Positions 46,039-62,913 of a stretch of 64,000 bases of DNA are shown in pieces (within the stretch, counting starts at the first letter, position 1; each line of letters begins with the position of its first letter). The DNA comes from an uncultured Spirochaeta sp. (GTDB lineage Bacteria > Spirochaetota > Spirochaetia > DSM-27196 > Alkalispirochaetaceae): NCBI GenBank assembly GCA_913030605.1, contig CAJWEZ010000001.1:1-64000 (forward strand), in the 5' to 3' direction. The notes beneath the pieces are model-generated. The model was given only the letters and a program-made list of their open reading frames with translations. It made no database searches and was not told the DNA's origin. The translations under genes were made by a program, and so were the position numbers.

Positions 46039-47363
46039 TTCCGAGCGGAGGTTGAAGCAAGCCACCGCCGTCTCCGGTAAGCTGTGGTCACCACAACAAC
46101 ACAGCGAAGGAGACTGACACGGTGGCAGAAGACAGGATCGCATTGTTGGAGCTCGTTGAAAAGTACGCGGACGCGGATCTGTTCAGAGAGCTCGGGCAGT
46201 ACGCGTTACAGCGACTGATGGAGATGGAGGCTGAGCAGATCGTGGGCGCCGGTCATCACGAGCGGAGCGAGGAACGAACGACTCATCGCAACGGATATCG
46301 CGACCGACGTCTTGAGACGCGCCTTGGGACGATGAACCTGAAGATCCCGAAGCTGCGCAGCGGCACGTACTTCCCGTCGTTCCTCGAGCCTCGCAAGATG
46401 AGCGAGCAGGCGCTCGTGGCGGTGGTACAGGAAGCGTACGTGAAGGGCGTGAGCACGAGGAAGGTCGACGACCTTGTCCAAGCGCTCGGGATGAGCGGAA
46501 TCTCCAAGAGCCAGGTCTCGAAGCTATGCAGCGAGCTCGACGAGCGCGTGCAGAACTTTCTGAAGCGAGAACTCATCGGGCAGTGGCCCTACGTGTGGCT
46601 CGACGCGACGTACCTGAAGTCGCGTGAGAACGGTCACGTGGTCACCAGAGCACTCGTCGTGGCCGTAGGGGTCAACCAGGAGGGCCGTAGAGAGGTTCTG
46701 GGTCTCGCCTGTGGGCTAGCGGGACCGAGGCGTTCTGGACCGAGTTCCTGCGCAGCCTCGCGGCTCGAGGGCTCGCCGGCGTGCGCCTGGTTATCTCTGA
46801 CGCCCATCAGGGCCTGAAGAACGCGGCTGCGAAGGTCCTGGGAGCAACCTGGCAACGGTGTCGGGTCCACTTCATGAGGAACGCGCTGGCCTACGTGCCG
46901 AAGTCGCAGAACCAGATGGTCGCCGCGGTGATTCGCACCGCGTTCGTCCAGCCAACTCGTGAGGAGGCGGTAGCGCAGTGGCGAGAGACCGCCGACCGGC
47001 TGCGAGAGCGATTCGAGAAGCTCGGCGCCCTCATGGACGAGGCTGAAGCTGACGTGTTGGCGTTCATGGGGTTCCCGAAGGACCATTGGAAGAAGATCGC
47101 GAGCACCAACCCGCTCGAGCGCGTGAACAAGGAAATCAAGCGCCGTTCGAACGTGGTCGGCATCTTCCCGAACGACGCCGCGATCATGAGGCTCGTCGGA
47201 GCACTGATCGTTGAGCAGAACGAGGAATGGCACCTAACACGTCGTTACATGAGTAATGAGAGTCTGGCGAAGGTCATCAAGCCAGATCCCGAGAACAAGC
47301 TCTTGGAGGCAAGAGGAGAGGTGGCGTAACCACAGAAACCCGGAGACCGGAAATTACACCACT
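46029..47363 (+). mobile_element. IS256-family (Mutator-type) insertion sequence
   Basis: About 1.33 kb bounded by inverted repeats: AGTGGTGTAATT at 46029-46040, and its complement AATTACACCACT at 47352-47363. It encloses a Mutator-type transposase. No convincing 8-bp target duplication is visible (TCCTACAG left, TGACTGGA right), which suggests an old insertion or later rearrangement. Confidence 0.8.
46122..47329 (+). pseudogene. IS256-family transposase, frameshifted
   Basis: Two overlapping ORFs (46122..46817 and 46781..47329) together give a full ~400-residue IS256/Mutator transposase. The first part has the N-terminal AEQIVGAGHHERSEERTTHRNGYRDR-type region (THRNGYRDRRLETRLGTMNL) and the first catalytic Asp in YVWLDATYLKSRENG. 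The second has the second Asp in VRLVISDAHQGLKNA, WQRCRVHFMRNAL, and the Glu region NPLERVNKEIKRR. The frame shifts by -1 near 46715, around TGTGGGCTAGCGGG, where the family needs a single reading frame. Either a one-base deletion or a sequence error; no classic slippery heptamer is present. Confidence 0.85.
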
Positions 47364-52306: not shown

Positions 52307-52573
52307 ATGCGCAAGTCTCGATTCACGGAGACACAGATCATCGGCATCCTGAATGAGGTCGAGGCCGGCACATCAGTCAAAGACGTGTGCCGCAAACACG
52401 GTATGAGCGATGCCACGTTCTACAACTGGCGAGCCAAGTACGGTGGCATGGAGGTCTCTCAGGTCAAGCGGCTGAAAGAGCTCGAAGATGAAAACCGACA
52501 GCTGAAGCACATGTATGCCGAGCTCAGCCTGGATCATCGGATCCTCAAGGACATCGTCGAAAAAAAGCTCTAA
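52307..52573 (+). CDS. IS3-family transposase OrfA
   Basis: An 88-residue protein with the OrfA helix-turn-helix (FTETQIIGILNEVEAG, VCRKHGMSDATFYNWRAKYG) and a leucine-rich coiled coil (VKRLKELEDENRQLKHMYAEL). Near its end the heptamer A AAA AAG (52561-52567) sits in frame, the classical site for the -1 ribosomal frameshift that makes the OrfAB transposase. Confidence 0.93.
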   Translation: MRKSRFTETQIIGILNEVEAGTSVKDVCRKHGMSDATFYNWRAKYGGMEVSQVKRLKELEDENRQLKHMYAELSLDHRILKDIVEKKL

Positions 52574-52608
52574 GGCCAGCCGAGAAGCGTACGCTGGTCG
52601 ACCATGCG

Positions 52609-53427
52609 GTGAGCGAACACGGAGCAAGCGTGCTCCGAGGCTGCCGCATCCTCGACTTCAGCCGTACGAGCTACGCGTATCAGCCCGATATGGAACGGGA
52701 TCGGGTTGTACGCGAAGCGCTTCTTGAGCTGGCCGACAGGCACCCACGATGGGGCTTTCGGCTCATGTTTGACTCACTACGCCGGAGAGGCCACCGATGG
52801 AACCACAAGCGCGTACATCGCGTGTATGTGGCTCTGGGGCTGAATCTACGGCGCAAGGCGAAACGGCGCTTGCCAACGCGTAATCCCGAGCCGCTGTCGG
52901 TGCCCGAGCAGGTAAACCAGTCGTGGTCCATGGACTTCATGAGCGACGCGCTGGAGAACGGACATCGCTTCAGGACGTTCAACGTCATCGACGACTACAA
53001 CCGCGAGGCGCTGGCCATCGAGATCGATCTGAGCCTTCCGGCACCACGCGTGACTCGTGTTCTCGACAGGCTGGTTGAACAGCGCGGCTATCCGAAGCAG
53101 CTACGTAGCGACAATGGCCCGGAGTTTATCAGCATCACCCTTGCCGAATGGGCTGAGCGTCATGGTGTTCACCTGGAGTTCATCAAGCCGGGAAAACCGA
53201 CTCAGAACTCCTACGTCGAACGGTTCAACCGCACCTATCGAGAGGAGATCCTCGACGCATACATCTTTCGGAGCTTGGACGAGGTCAGGGAGCTGACTCG
53301 GACATGGATAGACCAATACAATGGGGAGCGACCCCACAAAGCTCTCGGTAGGATCACTCCGCTGGACTACCGAAGAGCCAACAACCGGGACGGTGCCAAG
53401 TTATCGCCTGCACAAAAGGCGGGATGA
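52609..53427 (+). CDS. IS3-family transposase OrfB (DDE integrase)
   Basis: A 272-residue integrase-like domain in the -1 frame relative to orfA, normally made as an OrfAB fusion. The DDE triad is readable: SMDFMSDALENG, RSDNGPEFIS and NSYVERFNRTYREE. The helical HTH region (HPRWGFRLMFDSLRRRGHRWN) precedes it. The frame is intact, so the element may still be active. Confidence 0.93.
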   Translation: MSEHGASVLRGCRILDFSRTSYAYQPDMERDRVVREALLELADRHPRWGFRLMFDSLRRRGHRWNHKRVHRVYVALGLNLRRKAKRRLPTRNPEPLSVPEQVNQSWSMDFMSDALENGHRFRTFNVIDDYNREALAIEIDLSLPAPRVTRVLDRLVEQRGYPKQLRSDNGPEFISITLAEWAERHGVHLEFIKPGKPTQNSYVERFNRTYREEILDAYIFRSLDEVRELTRTWIDQYNGERPHKALGRITPLDYRRANNRDGAKLSPAQKAG

Positions 53428-55725: not shown

Positions 55726-56004
55726 TCACTTCCGATACTTGCCAAGCACATCCATAATTTCGGTCGTCTTCAGGCGTTGTTCCTCAGGATCTCCGCTCCG
55801 AATCGCATCGACGACACATGTGTTCAAGTGGTTCTCCATTACGATATTCTCAACGTTCCTGATCGCCGCGATGACGGCCGACGTTTGGTTGAGAATGTCG
55901 ACACAGTATCGGTCATCATCAATCATACGACCAATCCCGGCAATCTGTCCTTCAATCCGGCGTAACCTGTTCCGTACTTTTTCCCTCTGTTCTTCTTTCA
56001 TCAT
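55726..56004 (-). CDS. csoR: CsoR/FrmR-family metal-sensing repressor, first copy
   Basis: A 92-residue all-helical repressor from the ATG at 56004. It keeps the copper ligand set: Cys in DRYCVDILNQ, then His and Cys in ENHLNTCVVDAI, the C-H-C triad of CsoR. The basic N-terminal helix (RNRLRRIEGQIAGIGRMI) contacts DNA. Cu(I) binding releases the operator. GGGGGTAT immediately upstream of its start resembles half an operator. It converges on the TVP38-like gene. Confidence 0.9.
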   Translation of the reverse strand: MMKEEQREKVRNRLRRIEGQIAGIGRMIDDDRYCVDILNQTSAVIAAIRNVENIVMENHLNTCVVDAIRSGDPEEQRLKTTEIMDVLGKYRK

Positions 56005-56210
56005 ACCATACCCCCGTAGTCTACGACATCCTAACGTAACCAACAAAGGCATCGAATGGCAACAGCAAAACGAGGCAACTGTATTTCGTCCGGAGAAAAC
56101 AATTCATCAAACTGTAATATCGCCGTCAATTCTCATACATACCATAGCGTTATATTTAAGATGTTCGGGAAGCAGGCGCGTGAAAAGAAACTTTGACTAA
56201 GGTACATGAT

Positions 56211-56825
56211 ATGACAAAACAAATTAACAAAATCCAACAACGGTACGACCGAATCGCTCCCGTATATGATCTATTAGAAAACCCGATGGAGCGGATGGCG
56301 TCGTCGTGGCGCGAAGAATTGTTGAGTTTCGCGAAAGGTGCAGTTCTTGAAGTGGGAGTCGGTACGGGTAAAAACCTTCCCTACTACCCGAAGGACGTCT
56401 CGGTCACGGCGATCGATTTCAGCCGGGCGATGATTGCACGTGCAGCCGACCGAAAAGCGCAGCATGGCCTATCTAACGTAACGCTCCTGGAAATGGATGC
56501 ACAGCACCTCGATTTTGACGACAATACGTTCGATACGGTTGTCTCGACATGCGTGTTTTGCTCGGTACCACTTCCCGTAGCCGGTCTCAAAGAGATTCAC
56601 CGTGTATGCAAACCGGACGGTAAGGTGCTCATGCTCGAGCACGTTCGCAGTGAAGGCCCGATACTCGGTCCTCTTATGGACGTTCTAAACCCTCTTCCAC
56701 TCCATCTTTATGGGGCAAACATCAACCGCCGAACCGTGGATAATCTTCGCCGGGCGGGATTTCGCGATATCGAAGTGACAAATCTCTGGAAGGACATCAT
56801 AAAACGTATTACGGCCTATCCTTAA
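56211..56825 (+). CDS. Class I SAM-dependent methyltransferase (UbiE/type 11)
   Basis: A 204-residue enzyme from the ATG at 56211. SAM-binding motif I is VLEVGVGTGKNLPYYP, the acidic strand VTAIDFSRAMIARA, motif II NTFDTVVSTCVFCSV, and HRVCKPDGKVLMLEHVRSEG follows. Closely similar methyltransferases often sit in copper/silver resistance clusters; the substrate, lipid or metal species, is not known. It lies between the first csoR and the CsoR-controlled copZ promoter. Confidence 0.85.
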   Translation: MTKQINKIQQRYDRIAPVYDLLENPMERMASSWREELLSFAKGAVLEVGVGTGKNLPYYPKDVSVTAIDFSRAMIARAADRKAQHGLSNVTLLEMDAQHLDFDDNTFDTVVSTCVFCSVPLPVAGLKEIHRVCKPDGKVLMLEHVRSEGPILGPLMDVLNPLPLHLYGANINRRTVDNLRRAGFRDIEVTNLWKDIIKRITAYP

Positions 56826-56891: not shown

Positions 56892-56941
56892 TTGACCCAC
56901 AAATATCGACGATGTATAATTCTATATACCCTACAGGGGTA
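56892..56941 (+). promoter_or_regulatory. copZ promoter with CsoR-type operator
   Basis: TTGACC (56892-56897), 17-base spacer, perfect TATAAT (56915-56920), then the palindrome TATACCCTACAGGGGTA (56925-56941) over the predicted start site. The palindrome matches the CsoR class ATACCC-n4-GGGTAT. Repressor binding would block initiation until copper arrives. Confidence 0.75.
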
Positions 56942-56963: not shown

Positions 56964-57173
56964 ATGACACAACAAGTTTACATTAAGGATATGAGTTGCG
57001 ATCACTGTGCGATGAGTGTTCGGCAAGCGCTTGAAAAAATCGACGGCGTCTCCACCGTAACGGTTGATTTGCAGTCGGGAGTCGCTTCCGTAAATGTTCA
57101 AGCTGAGATTCCCTTGGAGACGTACGCTCAATCAGTTTCCGAGGCGGGTTATACGGTTGGAGCGGTCAGATAA
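56964..57173 (+). CDS. copZ: Copper chaperone CopZ (HMA domain)
   Basis: A 69-residue single HMA domain with the site DMSCDHCAMSV (C-x2-C) and closing VSEAGYTVG. The start is supported by AGGAGG seven bases upstream. It carries Cu(I) in the cytosol to the export ATPase. It has its own CsoR-controlled promoter and is followed by a hairpin terminator. Confidence 0.9.
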   Translation: MTQQVYIKDMSCDHCAMSVRQALEKIDGVSTVTVDLQSGVASVNVQAEIPLETYAQSVSEAGYTVGAVR

Positions 57174-57267: not shown

Positions 57268-58389
57268 TTAATCTTTCGGTCGTGGGATGACGAAAGAAAA
57301 AACACTTCCTTGACCAATCCCATTACTTTTGACCGCGATTGTTCCACCATGAGCCTTCACCAAATGAGCGGCAATAGTGAGACCGATTCCGCTCCCACCG
57401 CGGGAGCGTGCTCGCGACTTATCCACCCGATAGAATCGCTCAAACACCCGAGGGAGATCCTCGGGCGGAATGCCGATTCCATCATCAGAAACGGAAAACC
57501 GAACCAAATCTCCCTCCGCTTGGCACTGTACCTGGACGCTACCCTCCGGGTCGGTATATTGGAGTGCATTTCCGATTAAATTGAGCAGAACCTGGAGTAT
57601 CTTTTCGTCATCTACATCGACCCACGGCAGGTTTCGTTGTGGAAACCCGACCGTCAGCGCAATACCTTTGTCCTGGAATTGCGGACGAAGGCGATTAACG
57701 GCTATTCGGAGCAGTACTTTCGGATCCGTCAGCTTGGTTTCCAATGAAATCTCCCCCGCTTCGGCACGAGAGAGCTCGCTCAATTCTGAGGTGAGACGGC
57801 CGAGCCGTGATGCCTCGCGCTGTACGTCGAGAAAGGTTTCGGTATCCGCCGGCAACACACCATCAATGAGCCCTTCCATCATGCTCCGAATCGTTGTGAG
57901 CGGCGTGCGAAGTTCGTGGGCTACATTGCCAATAAGTTCCGCACGTCTCCTTTCGGTTTCATCGAGTGCGGCAGCCATGCGATTGAACGACGCGGCCAGC
58001 TCTCCCAACTCATCCTTCCAGACGGCCTCGACTCGGTGGGAGTAATCGCCGTCGGCGATACGTCTACTGGCAACCGTCAAAGAACGAACTGGCCCGATAA
58101 TTCGCCATGCCACGAAACTGCTCACCACTACCGCCGCCCCGACGGCGACGAGTCCCGCGACGAAGAGCACCTCGCCCACCGCAGCAAGAAAACTCTGCCT
58201 GAGATCCACTCCCATGCCGTGCATCCGCCCCATTGCTGCGTCCATTTCCGCCATGTGATGTGTCAGCGCGCGAGGTGCGTGCAGGTAGGCGACGGCCGCC
58301 AGGACCACGCTTCCCACGAGTACAACAATCAAATGGGAAAGAAAGAGCTTACGTCCAAGTTTCGGTTTTAAGAATGTTTCCAGCTTCAT
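57268..58389 (-). CDS. Sensor histidine kinase of the metal-resistance operon
   Basis: A 373-residue membrane kinase. Two N-terminal helices (FLSHLIVVLVGSVVLAAVAYL, VGEVLFVAGLVAVGAAVVV) flank a short periplasmic loop very rich in Met and His (HHMAEMDAAMGRMHGMG), a plausible Cu(I)/Ag(I) site. A HAMP domain (RRIADGDYSHRVEAVWKDE), HisKA with phospho-His (GNVAHELRTPLTTI) and HATPase_c (NLIGNALQYTD, SDDGIGIPPED, GGSGIGLTIAAHL) follow. Its ATG overlaps the stop of the response regulator gene. Confidence 0.9.
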   Translation of the reverse strand: MKLETFLKPKLGRKLFLSHLIVVLVGSVVLAAVAYLHAPRALTHHMAEMDAAMGRMHGMGVDLRQSFLAAVGEVLFVAGLVAVGAAVVVSSFVAWRIIGPVRSLTVASRRIADGDYSHRVEAVWKDELGELAASFNRMAAALDETERRRAELIGNVAHELRTPLTTIRSMMEGLIDGVLPADTETFLDVQREASRLGRLTSELSELSRAEAGEISLETKLTDPKVLLRIAVNRLRPQFQDKGIALTVGFPQRNLPWVDVDDEKILQVLLNLIGNALQYTDPEGSVQVQCQAEGDLVRFSVSDDGIGIPPEDLPRVFERFYRVDKSRARSRGGSGIGLTIAAHLVKAHGGTIAVKSNGIGQGSVFSFVIPRPKD

Positions 58390-59081
58390 GCGTGATTGGA
58401 ATCCAGGCGATAGCCGGCACCTCGCGCGGTGGCAATAATTCGGGCTTCTCGGGGATCGTCTTCGATCTTCCTGCGGAGTCTGCGAACGTGCACATCAACG
58501 ACACGCTCATCGATGTAGTAGTCGTCACCCCAGGCGTGGTCGATCAACTGATCTCGACTGAGGACTCGCCCGCTGTTGCGGGAAAGGGTGAGGAGCAAGT
58601 CAAACTCTATCGGAGTCAGGCTCAGTATTGTCGCATCTTTCCACGCTTGTCTGCTGCCCGGGTCGACGGTGATTCGGGAAAATCTAATAACGTCGCCCGG
58701 GTCGCCGTCCGCTCCCCGACCGCGCCGAAGGAGAACGCCGACCCGAGTTACAACCTCCCGGGGACTAAATGGTTTTACGACGTAGTCATCTGCCCCCATT
58801 TTGAGTCCCACGAGACGGTCGGACTCCTCGCCCTTGGCGCTGAGCATGAGCACCAATACGGAGGAGTCCTGCCGGAGTCGTCTTAATACTTCTATTCCAT
58901 CAATTCCTGGGAGCATAATATCAAGAATAACAACGTCAGGCTTAAATATCTGTACCCTCGGGAGCACCCAATCGCCTTCGGTTACTGACTCCGTGGCGTA
59001 TCCTTCATTTTCCAGATACGCCTTTAGTGTCTTCTGTATGCCGGCCTCATCGTCAACGATGAGAATGCGCTCACCGGCCAT
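58386..59081 (-). CDS. OmpR-family response regulator
   Basis: A 231-residue regulator. The receiver domain has the acidic pair IVDDEAG, the phospho-acceptor Asp in DVVILDIMLPGIDG, Thr/Ser in MLSAKG and Lys in VVKPFSP. The winged-helix effector has LTPIEFDLLLTL and VVDVHVRRLRRKIEDDP. It is translationally coupled to the kinase downstream and is fifth in the minus-strand metal operon. Confidence 0.93.
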   Translation of the reverse strand: MAGERILIVDDEAGIQKTLKAYLENEGYATESVTEGDWVLPRVQIFKPDVVILDIMLPGIDGIEVLRRLRQDSSVLVLMLSAKGEESDRLVGLKMGADDYVVKPFSPREVVTRVGVLLRRGRGADGDPGDVIRFSRITVDPGSRQAWKDATILSLTPIEFDLLLTLSRNSGRVLSRDQLIDHAWGDDYYIDERVVDVHVRRLRRKIEDDPREARIIATARGAGYRLDSNHA

Positions 59082-59102: not shown

Positions 59103-59798
59103 TCACCGCAGCTCCTTTTTAATTTGACGATACTCTTCTTGAGAAAGCTCGCCCCTGGCATAGCGAGCCTGCAGGATGGCGACGGCGCTCTCACCTGATT
59201 TGCCCGATTGCGAGCCGTGTCGGGGCGTCCTGGTCCGCACGAGCGCTACAATGATAGCGACTATCAGTACCAAAACGAGAAGTCCGATAATCCAGAGGTA
59301 GGTACCGGCCTGCCGACTAAACGGCGTTCCGCCGTACCAGCTTCCCCGATCACCCCAGGTTTCCGACCAGGGTCCGTTACGGTCCGCGCCCCAGTTCCAG
59401 CCACCCATCATACCGGGGCCCATCATTCCGAACCCCATCATTCCGGGGCCGAAGGAGGCGAGATTACCGTCATTTTGAAGGTAGTTATATCCAAGCCAGG
59501 CGTGCGTGGAGGCAAGCTCAGCGGAGCCTTCGCCTCCCATCATTCGATCCATCCATTCGTGCCGCTCGTCGTCCGCAATCATGAGGCCCATGACGCCGTC
59601 TCCGAGCTCTTCAAGGAGATCCCGGTCGACCGCATTGGCGTCAATTTGGCCGACCCGTTCTACTCCCTGAACCTGTATGATCTGTTGGAGAATTTCCTCG
59701 ACGTCGCGTCCGTGTGCATCCTCCTGAGCAGTGGCAATTCCCGCTACAAAAAAAGCCAGTGCCACCGCAAACAAGAACGATTTTCGACTATAAATCAT
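59103..59798 (-). CDS. Exported protein with unrecognised domain, Met/Gly-rich linker, membrane helix and SHOCT tail
   Basis: A 231-residue protein with a signal peptide (FLFAVALAFFVAGIATA). The first domain (EILQQIIQVQGVERVGQID to YLQNDGNL) is the paralogue of the one encoded at 54551..55054. A Met/Gly-rich stretch (GPGMMGFGMMGPGMMGG) that could bind soft metals follows, then one membrane helix (LWIIGLLVLVLIVAIIVALV). The tail is a cytosolic SHOCT motif (ILQARYARGELSQEEYRQIK). Overlaps the upstream SHOCT gene (TAATG). Function unknown; location and methionines suggest copper handling. Confidence 0.75.
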   Translation of the reverse strand: MIYSRKSFLFAVALAFFVAGIATAQEDAHGRDVEEILQQIIQVQGVERVGQIDANAVDRDLLEELGDGVMGLMIADDERHEWMDRMMGGEGSAELASTHAWLGYNYLQNDGNLASFGPGMMGFGMMGPGMMGGWNWGADRNGPWSETWGDRGSWYGGTPFSRQAGTYLWIIGLLVLVLIVAIIVALVRTRTPRHGSQSGKSGESAVAILQARYARGELSQEEYRQIKKELR

Positions 59799-60064
59799 TA
59801 CTCTCCACCTCTTATGTCCGACAACATGCTTCGGTACTCTTCCCTGGAAATTTCACCTTTCGCGTACCGTTCCTTAAGTATCTCCGCCGGGTCACGTCGG
59901 CCTGATCCGCCGGGGGAAAGCCCGTCTCCATCGGTTCGACGGATAATCCACCGTATGAAGAAGAATCCTCCGATGAGAATTACCGCTATCAGCAGGATGG
60001 AGACGATACCGCCTCCGTATCCAAATCCCATGCCGGTTCCCCAGCCCCAGTTGTTGTGCATCAT
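59798..60064 (-). CDS. Small SHOCT-domain membrane protein
   Basis: An 88-residue protein from the ATG at 60064 (TTGGAGG upstream). A Trp/Gly-rich N terminus (WGWGTGMGFGYGGG) precedes one membrane helix (IVSILLIAVILIGGFFFI). It ends with a SHOCT motif (ILKERYAKGEISREEYRSML). SHOCT tails are short oligomerisation or signalling modules. Second of three consecutive SHOCT genes. Confidence 0.8.
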   Translation of the reverse strand: MMHNNWGWGTGMGFGYGGGIVSILLIAVILIGGFFFIRWIIRRTDGDGLSPGGSGRRDPAEILKERYAKGEISREEYRSMLSDIRGGE

Positions 60065-60086
60065 GTATTGTTCCTCCAAGTCAAAC

Positions 60087-60269
60087 TTAATTCAGATCTC
60101 GTCTGAGTCGCTCGTATTCTTCCCGGTCGATTTCACCCCGGGCGTAGCGCTCGTTGATAATATCGATCGGCACCTTTCGATCGGCGCCATCGAGAGACGC
60201 CGGGATCAATCCGTTCTTGTACATAAGGTATCCCACTGCAAGCAACACAATAATCAGTAAAAGTCCCAT
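60087..60269 (-). CDS. Minimal SHOCT-domain membrane protein
   Basis: A 60-residue protein from the ATG at 60269 (GGAGG five bases upstream). It consists only of one membrane helix (LLLIIVLLAVGYLMY) and a SHOCT motif (IINERYARGEIDREEYERLR). It lies between the copper ATPase and the next SHOCT gene in the same operon. Function unknown. Confidence 0.8.
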   Translation of the reverse strand: MGLLLIIVLLAVGYLMYKNGLIPASLDGADRKVPIDIINERYARGEIDREEYERLRRDLN

Positions 60270-60365: not shown

Positions 60366-62396
60366 TCAGGCCGTCGCCTCTTCCAATTCCTCTTTCTTGA
60401 CGCGCAATAGCCGTGCGTTTACGGCAACAATCACGGTGGAAAGGGACATCAGAATGGCACCAACCTCCGGCGAAAGCACAATACCGGCGCTACTGTATAG
60501 AACACCCGCTGCCAGGGGGATGGCTACCACGTTGTAACCCGTTGCCCATATCAGGTTCTGCACCATTTTTCGATAAGTAGCCCGACCAAAGAGAATTAAC
60601 GCGGTAATATCGAGGGGGTTGGAGTTGACCAGGATAATATCGGCCGTTGCGGCGGCAACGTCCGTTCCGGATCCGACGGCAATGCCGATCTGTGCCTGGG
60701 CGAGGGCCGGAGAATCGTTGACCCCGTCACCGGTCATGGCGACGTATTCTCCCTTGGCTTGTAACTCCTTCACCTTTTCCTGCTTCTGATCGGGAAGGAC
60801 CTCCGCAAAGAACCCATCCATTCCGAGTTCCTCCGCGACAGCTTCGGCGGTCTCCCGGTTATCTCCGGTGAGCATCCAGCATTCGATTCCCCGTTTTTTC
60901 AGCGCCTGAATCGCCCGGTAGGACTCCGGTCGAATGGTATCGGAAAGAGCCACGGATCCCGCAACTTCGCCGTCAACGAGGACGAAGACGCGTGTGACTC
61001 CGCCCCTGCGTTCCGCTCCCTGCGGCCTGTTGAGCCCCTGTTCTTCCAGATACCCCGGGCTCACCACCTGGACGCGCTTACTCCCGACGGTACCGGAGAC
61101 GCCTTTGCCCTTAATCGCCTCGAAGTCATCGACCGATTTGATGGTGATTCCGTCGCTCTTCGCTTTTGTCACAATTCCCTTACCGATGGGGTGTTCCGAC
61201 TGCCCCTCCAAGGCTGCCGCAAATGAGAGAATTTCCTTTTCTGTGTACGGACCGCTATGGACATTCACGGAGTTAACCTCGAAGGTTCCCTTGGTAAGCG
61301 TTCCCGTTTTATCAAAGAGGACCGCGCTTATCTTCCGGGCGTTTTCAAAGGCGGTGCGGTTGCGAATCAGCAGGCCGTTCTGGGCGGACTTGGCGGTGGA
61401 CTGTGCTACCACCAATGGTATCGCCAGCCCTAAAGCGTGGGGGCACGTAATGATCATGACCGTCGCCATCCGGGCAATGGAAAACTGCAACCCCTGCCCG
61501 GCAAACAACCACGCCACGAGGGTCGATAAACCCACCGTTATCGCGACAATCGTAAGCCAGAGCGCTGCACGATCTGAAAGTGCCTGCGTCTTGGACTTAG
61601 CTGCCTGGGCCTCTCTGACCATATTGATGACTTTTGAAAGGTAGGAATCTTCGCCCGAACTTTCCACCCGGAGTTCCATCGATCCGTCGCCGTTAATAGA
61701 ACCTCCGATGAGCTGATCCCCCGCTTCCTTGCGAACCGGGCGAGACTCGCCGGTCAACATCGACTCGTCCACATAGCTCGAACCGCGAGAAATCACCCCG
61801 TCGGAAGGTATTTTCTCTCCCGGCTTGATGACCAGGATATCACCCTTCCTGATCTCCGAGAGAGGAACGTCCGTAACGTCGTCTCCCGACTTTCTGTGAG
61901 CTTCATTCGGCATGAGTTGGGCAAGCTTCTCAAGGGCGGACGACGCACCCAATACCGAGGCCATTTCAATCCAGTGGCCCGCAAGCATAATCGCGATTAA
62001 GGTTGCCAATTCCCAATAAAAGGGTGTCCCTTCGAGACCGAACGTTACGGCCGCGCTGTAGACATACGCGACCGTTATGGCGAGACCGATAAGGGTCATC
62101 ATGCCCGGTGCTTTCTGCTTGAGTTCGCCTACCAGACCGCTAAGGAAGGGCCAGCCGCCATATACAAATATGATCGTGGCCAGGCCAAAGACGACATAAT
62201 CCGCTCCGGCAAAGGTGAACGAAAAGCCGAGGAACTGCTGAATGAGTTCCGATAACGCGAGGACCGGAATGGTGAACACCAGGGTCACGTAAAACCGCGT
62301 TCGGAAATCACGGATCATCATCCTGTGATGTTCATTGTGGTCATGGTGTTGATCACCGTGGTGATTGTGGTGATTGTGGTCAACCTGCTTACTCAT
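60366..62396 (-). CDS. copB: CopB-type copper P1B ATPase (CPH motif, His-rich N terminus)
   Basis: A 676-residue pump from the ATG at 62396 (AAAGGAG upstream). The N terminus is a histidine-rich metal-binding tail (HNHHNHHGDQHHDHNEHH) in place of HMA domains. The membrane ion site is TCPHALGLAIP, the CPH motif of CopB pumps. Other motifs: TGESRPV, DKTGTLTKG, SEHPIG and MTGDGVNDSPAL. CopB-type pumps export Cu(II)/Cu(I) or Ag(I). It is the first gene of a six-gene minus-strand operon preceded by a near-perfect CsoR-type operator. Confidence 0.93.
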   Translation of the reverse strand: MSKQVDHNHHNHHGDQHHDHNEHHRMMIRDFRTRFYVTLVFTIPVLALSELIQQFLGFSFTFAGADYVVFGLATIIFVYGGWPFLSGLVGELKQKAPGMMTLIGLAITVAYVYSAAVTFGLEGTPFYWELATLIAIMLAGHWIEMASVLGASSALEKLAQLMPNEAHRKSGDDVTDVPLSEIRKGDILVIKPGEKIPSDGVISRGSSYVDESMLTGESRPVRKEAGDQLIGGSINGDGSMELRVESSGEDSYLSKVINMVREAQAAKSKTQALSDRAALWLTIVAITVGLSTLVAWLFAGQGLQFSIARMATVMIITCPHALGLAIPLVVAQSTAKSAQNGLLIRNRTAFENARKISAVLFDKTGTLTKGTFEVNSVNVHSGPYTEKEILSFAAALEGQSEHPIGKGIVTKAKSDGITIKSVDDFEAIKGKGVSGTVGSKRVQVVSPGYLEEQGLNRPQGAERRGGVTRVFVLVDGEVAGSVALSDTIRPESYRAIQALKKRGIECWMLTGDNRETAEAVAEELGMDGFFAEVLPDQKQEKVKELQAKGEYVAMTGDGVNDSPALAQAQIGIAVGSGTDVAAATADIILVNSNPLDITALILFGRATYRKMVQNLIWATGYNVVAIPLAAGVLYSSAGIVLSPEVGAILMSLSTVIVAVNARLLRVKKEELEEATA

Positions 62397-62511
62397 ACGT
62401 GGCTCCTTTCGAAGGGCGCTGTGTACCTCTTCCGGACTCATCAGGAGCCCGGATTAATCAGCCGTATCGCCCTTCGATTAAAAAAGATTCATATACTGAT
62501 ATTAAGATAAT

Positions 62512-62528
62512 ATACCCCAAGGGGGTAT
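62512..62528 (-). promoter_or_regulatory. CsoR-type operator of the copB operon
   Basis: ATACCCCAAGGGGGTAT is a near-perfect palindrome 115 bases before the copB start codon. It shares the ATACCC...GGGTAT core with the copZ and second csoR operators. Confidence 0.75.
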
Positions 62529-62583: not shown

Positions 62584-62602
62584 TATACCCTACCGGGGTA
62601 TA
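62584..62602 (+). promoter_or_regulatory. CsoR-type operator of the second csoR gene
   Basis: TATACCCTACCGGGGTATA is a near-perfect palindrome 33 bases before the second csoR start codon, consistent with autoregulation. With the copB operator 56 bp away it makes a divergent control region. Confidence 0.78.
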
Positions 62603-62634: not shown

Positions 62635-62913
62635 ATGCTTGACGATAAACAAAAAAAGAGTATACGCGATCGCTTAAGCAGGATTCGGGGCCAGCTCGGC
62701 GGGGTCAGTAAAATGGTTGAAACAGATCGATACTGCTTAGACATACTGAACCAGACTTCGGCCGTAGTCGCGGCGATACGCAACGTCGAGAACATCGTTC
62801 TCCAGAATCATCTTGACACCTGTGTCGCCGATGCGATTCGAAGCGAGAATCTCACCGAGCAAACGGAAAAGCAAAAAGAGATCATGAGTATGCTCGGTAC
62901 ATATCGTCGGTAG
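62635..62913 (+). CDS. csoR: CsoR-family metal-sensing repressor, second copy
   Basis: A 92-residue repressor with the C-H-C ligand set (DRYCLDILNQ; QNHLDTCVADAI) and the basic helix RDRLSRIRGQLGGVSKMV. It is clearly homologous to the first copy at 55726 but diverged throughout. Divergent from copB and preceded by its own operator, it is the most likely master switch of the island. Whether the two CsoR proteins differ in metal or form mixed tetramers is unknown. Confidence 0.93.
   Translation: MLDDKQKKSIRDRLSRIRGQLGGVSKMVETDRYCLDILNQTSAVVAAIRNVENIVLQNHLDTCVADAIRSENLTEQTEKQKEIMSMLGTYRR

Follow-up and report, generated by a model that had tools for sequence, protein, structure and literature searches.

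The probable copB operon and its predicted operators

In the window, the whole 64,000-nucleotide stretch of Spirochaeta DNA analysed here, three small genes on the minus strand encode proteins of 231, 88 and 60 residues (Table 1). Transcription runs from copB through the 60-, 88- and 231-residue genes to the response regulator gene and then the histidine kinase gene. Ribosome-binding sites are present upstream of copB, the 60-residue gene and the 88-residue gene. The 88-residue gene shares a stop/start overlap, TAATG, with the 231-residue gene, which is separated from the response regulator gene by 22 bp. The longest copB reading frame starts at 62441, and the likely start is MSKQ with the ribosome-binding site AAAGGAG. 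CopB is a copper P1B ATPase (TIGR01511, 610 bits against a cut-off of 397) that carries the CPH motif in ITCPHALG and a His-rich N-terminal segment, HNHHNHHGDQHHDH.

Table 1. Features of the copB region, with positions in the window.
Feature	Position	Strand	Description
MMG paralogue, 167 aa	54551..55054	+	TM helix; lacks SHOCT
Second CsoR-family repressor	55726..56052	-	
CopZ/HMA-type metallochaperone	56964..57173	+	CsoR-type palindrome with one mismatch at 56926
Histidine kinase	57268..58389	-	extracytoplasmic loop short, His/Met-rich: THHMAEMDAAMGRMHGMG
OmpR-type response regulator	58386..59081	-	
231-aa protein ('MMG-SHOCT')	59103..59798	-	signal-peptide-like N-terminus, helical Met/His domain (predicted), Met-rich GMMG linker, one TM helix, SHOCT tail
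SHOCT tail of 231-aa protein	59106..59186	-	
MMG domain (residues 25-118)	59445..59726	-	invariant set LGDxVM...HEWMDxMMGGEGS...H
88-aa protein	59798..60064	-	single-pass: short Trp/Gly/Met-rich N-terminus, TM helix, SHOCT tail
60-aa protein	60087..60269	-	single-pass: TM helix and SHOCT tail
copB	60366..62396	-	CPH-motif copper P1B ATPase, His-rich N-terminus
Perfect CsoR-type palindrome, ATACCCCAAGGGGGTAT	62512..62528	.	in spacer of promoter-like match facing copB
Second perfect CsoR-type palindrome	62585..62601	.	on divergent csoR side
CsoR-family repressor	62635..62913	+	divergent from operon; Trns_repr_metal 88 bits; C-H-C ligand pattern by inspection

The promoter-like match directed toward copB reads TTGACA(62533)-18-TATCTT(62504). 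Perfect CsoR-type palindromes (ATACCC-n5-GGGTAT) occur only three times in the 110 kb examined, the third being upstream of a CPC-type copper ATPase gene at 81146. Looser matching gave counts near those of shuffled sequence; therefore, only the perfect sites carry weight. As one such site lies inside the promoter-like match upstream of copB, the 60-, 88- and 231-residue genes are likely to be part of a copper-controlled operon. The predicted operator within the promoter-like match, together with the nearby CsoR with its C-H-C ligands, would place this operon in a CsoR regulon. The histidine kinase and response regulator score below the curated CopS/CusS and CopR/CusR cut-offs (TIGR01386, 163 against 292 bits; TIGR01387, 171 against 279 bits), so a copper role for this pair is assigned from context.

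These results bear out the description in the earlier note of three consecutive membrane proteins with SHOCT tails, each tail preceded by one membrane helix, in a copper operon between copB and a two-component system. The reading frames are present, the CPH-motif ATPase lies on one side and the response regulator and kinase on the other, and the arrangement recurs in other genomes.

A second genome of the genus (G003) retains the order response regulator, 219, 91 and 60 residues, the last being an orthologue of identical length to the 60-residue protein. The 88-residue protein is kept in G003 and also, next to CopB, in loci L090 and L091. All three genes are under purifying selection, with dN/dS values between the window and G003 of 0.14 (231 residues), 0.18 (88 residues) and 0.08 (60 residues), and selection is strongest on the MMG domain (0.05); these are simple Nei–Gojobori estimates with synonymous sites close to saturation. 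Only five SHOCT domains exceed the cut-off in the 4.07-Mb genome, all of them inside one 21-kb stretch of the same contig. This clustering, and a gene order kept in G003 with low dN/dS, argue that the block did not arise by chance. The MMG domain was not found in the other genus members searched, and the cluster is thus accessory.

Transposase genes of the IS3-like (52307–53427) and IS256-like (46122–47329) kinds both lie to one side of the copper region, and their presence at its flank suggests mobility.

SHOCT tails and the small membrane proteins

The three tails score 34.3 (231 residues), 33.2 (88 residues) and 35.4 bits (60 residues) against the SHOCT profile (PF09851; Pfam gathering cut-off 27), and each follows a hydrophobic helix. 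In the AlphaFold model of the 231-residue protein, the tail forms the two short helices of a SHOCT domain (residues 201–214 and 220–230). The tails had been described as near-identical. They do share the SHOCT motif, but they are mutually 39–50% identical over 28 positions, whereas SHOCT tails of different, unrelated loci within the collection assembled for this analysis average 49%. Because identity is no higher than among unrelated loci, the likeness is that of the SHOCT family consensus, and recent tandem duplication or a special pairing of the three tails was rejected.

The same comparison bears on the proposal that SHOCT tails bring the three proteins together in one complex with either CopB or the sensor kinase, which we consider improbable. 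Co-assembly would fit the packing of three SHOCT genes into a single tight operon, a pattern that recurs as CopB-79-84-223 in loci L030–L032 and as CopB-88-222 in L090, and a 2024 study suggests that SHOCT-like domains aid membrane localisation and the assembly of membrane complexes (PMC11237479). However, the tails are no closer to each other than to those of unrelated SHOCT proteins, and when Eberhardt et al. (2013), in naming the domain, tested oligomerisation with one SHOCT, the fusion protein was not multimerised (PMC3581485). Moreover, many relatives of the 231-residue protein that are encoded next to copper pumps lack a SHOCT, and in some paralogues the SHOCT would sit outside the membrane. 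The co-assembly suggestion of the earlier note accordingly finds no backing here.

SHOCT was also rejected as a general marker of copper loci: of 59 SHOCTs in a Spirochaetota survey, at least four lie within 5 kb of a listed copper ATPase, a small share although above the 0.26 expected. A literature search for SHOCT with CopB or P-type ATPases, or for DUF2078 with copper, gave nothing pertinent except one silver-induced Haloferax SHOCT gene. By score, all three tails belong with the SHOCT domain proteins (PF09851), a class whose function is not established; here, in contrast, the domain is an optional tail on another domain. It would be a generic tail with a localisation or docking role, and not the business end of the 231-residue protein. 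The locus offers a clear genomic context for testing the function of a SHOCT tail.

Other P-type ATPases have small partners with a single membrane pass, such as KdpF and phospholamban. By analogy, the 60- and 88-residue proteins could be regulatory micropeptide subunits of CPH-type CopB, a reading that is compatible with the role favoured below for the 231-residue protein and that we regard as unlikely. Among Spirochaetota loci that contain the MMG domain, small SHOCT proteins accompany CopB (CPH) in 7/7 cases and CopA (CPC) in 0/10 (Fisher 5e-5), although these counts are small, share ancestry, were grouped post hoc and had near-identical relatives collapsed by hand. CopB does not need them, since none of four CPH-type CopB loci without the MMG domain has one, including the second CopB of the same genome. 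Nor do they occur in patescibacterial loci that combine CopB and the MMG domain, and in L051 a small SHOCT protein adjoins CopA where the MMG domain is missing. The 60- and 88-residue proteins are probably membrane-localised helpers, operon-mates of the CopB version of the locus in Spirochaetota.

The MMG domain and its distribution

The distinctive part of the locus is the predicted exported Met/His domain of the 231-residue protein, here termed MMG. Twelve positions are invariant in 16 diverse members (domain numbering): L37, L40, G41, M45, H55, D59, M61, G63, G64, S67, L70 and H74. The invariant Gly and Met residues could be structural instead of metal-related. The 231-residue protein contains no Cys.

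The 231-residue protein was modelled with AlphaFold with the use of 23 family members. The model of the MMG domain is confidently helical, with predicted helices at residues 33–44, 59–73, 77–86 and 93–108 (pLDDT about 90 or more) and a transmembrane helix at 164–190; overall pTM is low (0.47), and the linker at 121–161 has pLDDT below 50. The domain matched no Pfam or NCBIfam profile, no PDB entry by sequence below E 0.5 and, as a model searched with Foldseek, no PDB entry below E 1. Neither profile nor fold matches linked it to the known periplasmic copper chaperone families CusF, CopI, CupA and Csp, and it matched no phage family.

Topology was read by eye from the signal-peptide-like sequence and charge; positive charge after the transmembrane helix would place the SHOCT of the 231-residue protein inside. 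Five MMG-SHOCT proteins lack a transmembrane helix before the SHOCT (C1:70831, C1:80313, L033:7871-8395, L039:9923-10447 and L044:9354-10049). These paralogues, two of which are 178-residue copies from the same genome, would export their SHOCT, unlike the usual inner-leaflet proposal, which poses a puzzle. The genes for the 178-residue pair (C1:70831-71367 and C1:80313-80849; L011/L012) lie outside the window, 9.5 kb apart with differing flanks, and agree at 536 of 537 bases, the mark of a duplication that is recent or of gene conversion.

Most members belong to two bacterial groups. The family occurs in 17 of 393 Spirochaetota genomes, the present one included (about 4%), and among 287 genomes from the phylum of the patescibacterial locus there were 11 strong matches (about 4%) and 12 weak ones. 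In the phylum of a Stahlbacteria MMG locus, 120 genomes yielded no further member. A divergent patescibacterial subfamily (L124–L128) has the signature GDTQRHAVMNQMMxxMMG...EEQMHI..SGC, and its member in L124 adjoins a P1B ATPase with CPD in place of CPC or CPH. Plasmid carriage of MMG was rejected, as 72,556 plasmids gave no match to the domain; with the 88-residue protein as query, one plasmid matched, in the tail region only.

The Spirochaetota and patescibacterial samples were picked without regard to copper genes, and they supplied 31 MMG loci, 16 from Spirochaetota and 15 patescibacterial (among these 15, L128 and four of the weak-match subfamily). A heavy-metal P1B ATPase or CsoR is encoded within 5 kb of 22 of these loci: the ATPase in 10/16 Spirochaetota and 11/15 patescibacterial loci, and CsoR only in one more. 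The ATPases are of the CPC or CPH type, with CPD in two cases, and several MMG–ATPase or MMG–CsoR pairs share a strand with gaps of 2–65 bp. At assumed chance rates of 3% and 5%, 22/31 has a binomial P < 1e-20 even at the higher rate. Loci from the contig scan, which used less general, HEW-type patterns, agree with this copper context. The genome studied here has five MMG copies, and those at 59103, 54551, 80313 and on C10 are near copper genes; the copy at 70831 has none within 5 kb.

This association makes it improbable that MMG lacks copper specificity and hitch-hikes in metal islands as a structural or envelope-stress membrane protein. Hitch-hiking would account for the IS elements near the cluster, for the small share of Spirochaetota SHOCTs found near listed copper ATPases, and for the nine of 31 MMG loci that lack both a P1B ATPase and CsoR within 5 kb; of these nine, some are on short contigs or fragments, and L092, L095, L100 and L128 are not. 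It is at odds with invariant Met and His residues and with 22 unselected loci in two distant groups placed beside a P1B ATPase or CsoR.

Proposed role of the 231-residue protein

Periplasmic CusF receives copper from CopA and uses Met and His residues as ligands (PMC7558416). A comparable role is proposed for the 231-residue protein. We hold with middling confidence that it belongs to an undescribed 'MMG' family of accessory proteins that are encoded in P1B copper-export operons, are tethered to the membrane and bind copper on its extracytoplasmic side. A signal peptide would put the small helical MMG domain outside the membrane, where Cu(I) leaving CopB or CopA would be captured by the invariant Met and His residues of the domain together with the Met-rich linker. 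The domain would then hold Cu(I) or pass it on, as an acceptor or buffer beside the exporter. Export of the protein, its binding of copper and its receipt of copper from the pump, like any contact with other proteins, are inferred. This copper-helper role is favoured because of the invariant Met and His residues, the lack of Cys, the copper ATPase and CsoR neighbours, the CsoR-type operator, purifying selection, the confident helical model and the CusF precedent.

Alternatively, the MMG protein might be a sensor module that detects copper on the extracytoplasmic side and signals to the histidine kinase encoded nearby. The 22-bp spacing from the response regulator gene, the very short sensor loop of the kinase itself, and a response regulator and kinase also near the MMG genes in L033, L039, L117 and L118 are consistent with such signalling, but most MMG loci have no such pair within 5 kb, and a related kinase and CopB locus on C40 does without MMG, leaving the sensor module an improbable reading. 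At the latter locus (L129), a second CPH-type CopB (G000:C40:12223-14301) is divergent from a related two-component system, with neither SHOCT nor MMG genes. In a bolder version of the copper-helper reading, which is distinctly unlikely, the MMG domain would have a new Cu(I)-binding fold and would form with the two SHOCT micropeptides a dedicated membrane module that both takes copper from and regulates CPH-type CopB; if true, the copper exporter would in Spirochaetota come with an acceptor and small regulatory subunits of its own.

As a copper helper, the 231-residue protein would resemble the Cu(I)/Ag(I) chaperone CusF in its extracytoplasmic location, its His/Met ligands and its receipt of copper from an exporter. 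CusF is, however, a soluble, five-stranded beta-barrel (PMC7558416), whereas MMG is predicted to be helical and, in the 231-residue protein, membrane-tethered. CupA of Streptococcus pneumoniae is likewise a membrane-anchored copper chaperone of a copper-export operon, but it belongs to the cupredoxins and supplies CopA from a cysteine site (PMC7558416), while the 231-residue protein lacks Cys and its domain is predicted to lie outside. The copB-mco copper hypertolerance operon of Staphylococcus aureus (PMC6191537), compared by description only, similarly has accessory genes alongside CopB and is carried on a mobile element; its abstract names no SHOCT or MMG gene. Provisionally, MMG would be a new family of a functional kind already known. 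Members of this unnamed cross-phylum family are encoded beside copper pumps and likely handle copper; they share an invariant Met/His signature, and their domain matches no known fold. The family would help to trace copper after CopA or CopB in bacteria that lack known acceptors.

Two further genes were noted. In several copper loci, MMG genes have a class I SAM methyltransferase gene as their neighbour (56193–56825 in the window, C1:70095-70889, L025:2243-2887, L048 and L049). The contig that carries the G003 copper block also encodes a DUF305-like protein, named by eye, that contains MLPHHREAVESARVLG (L025:4247-4879).
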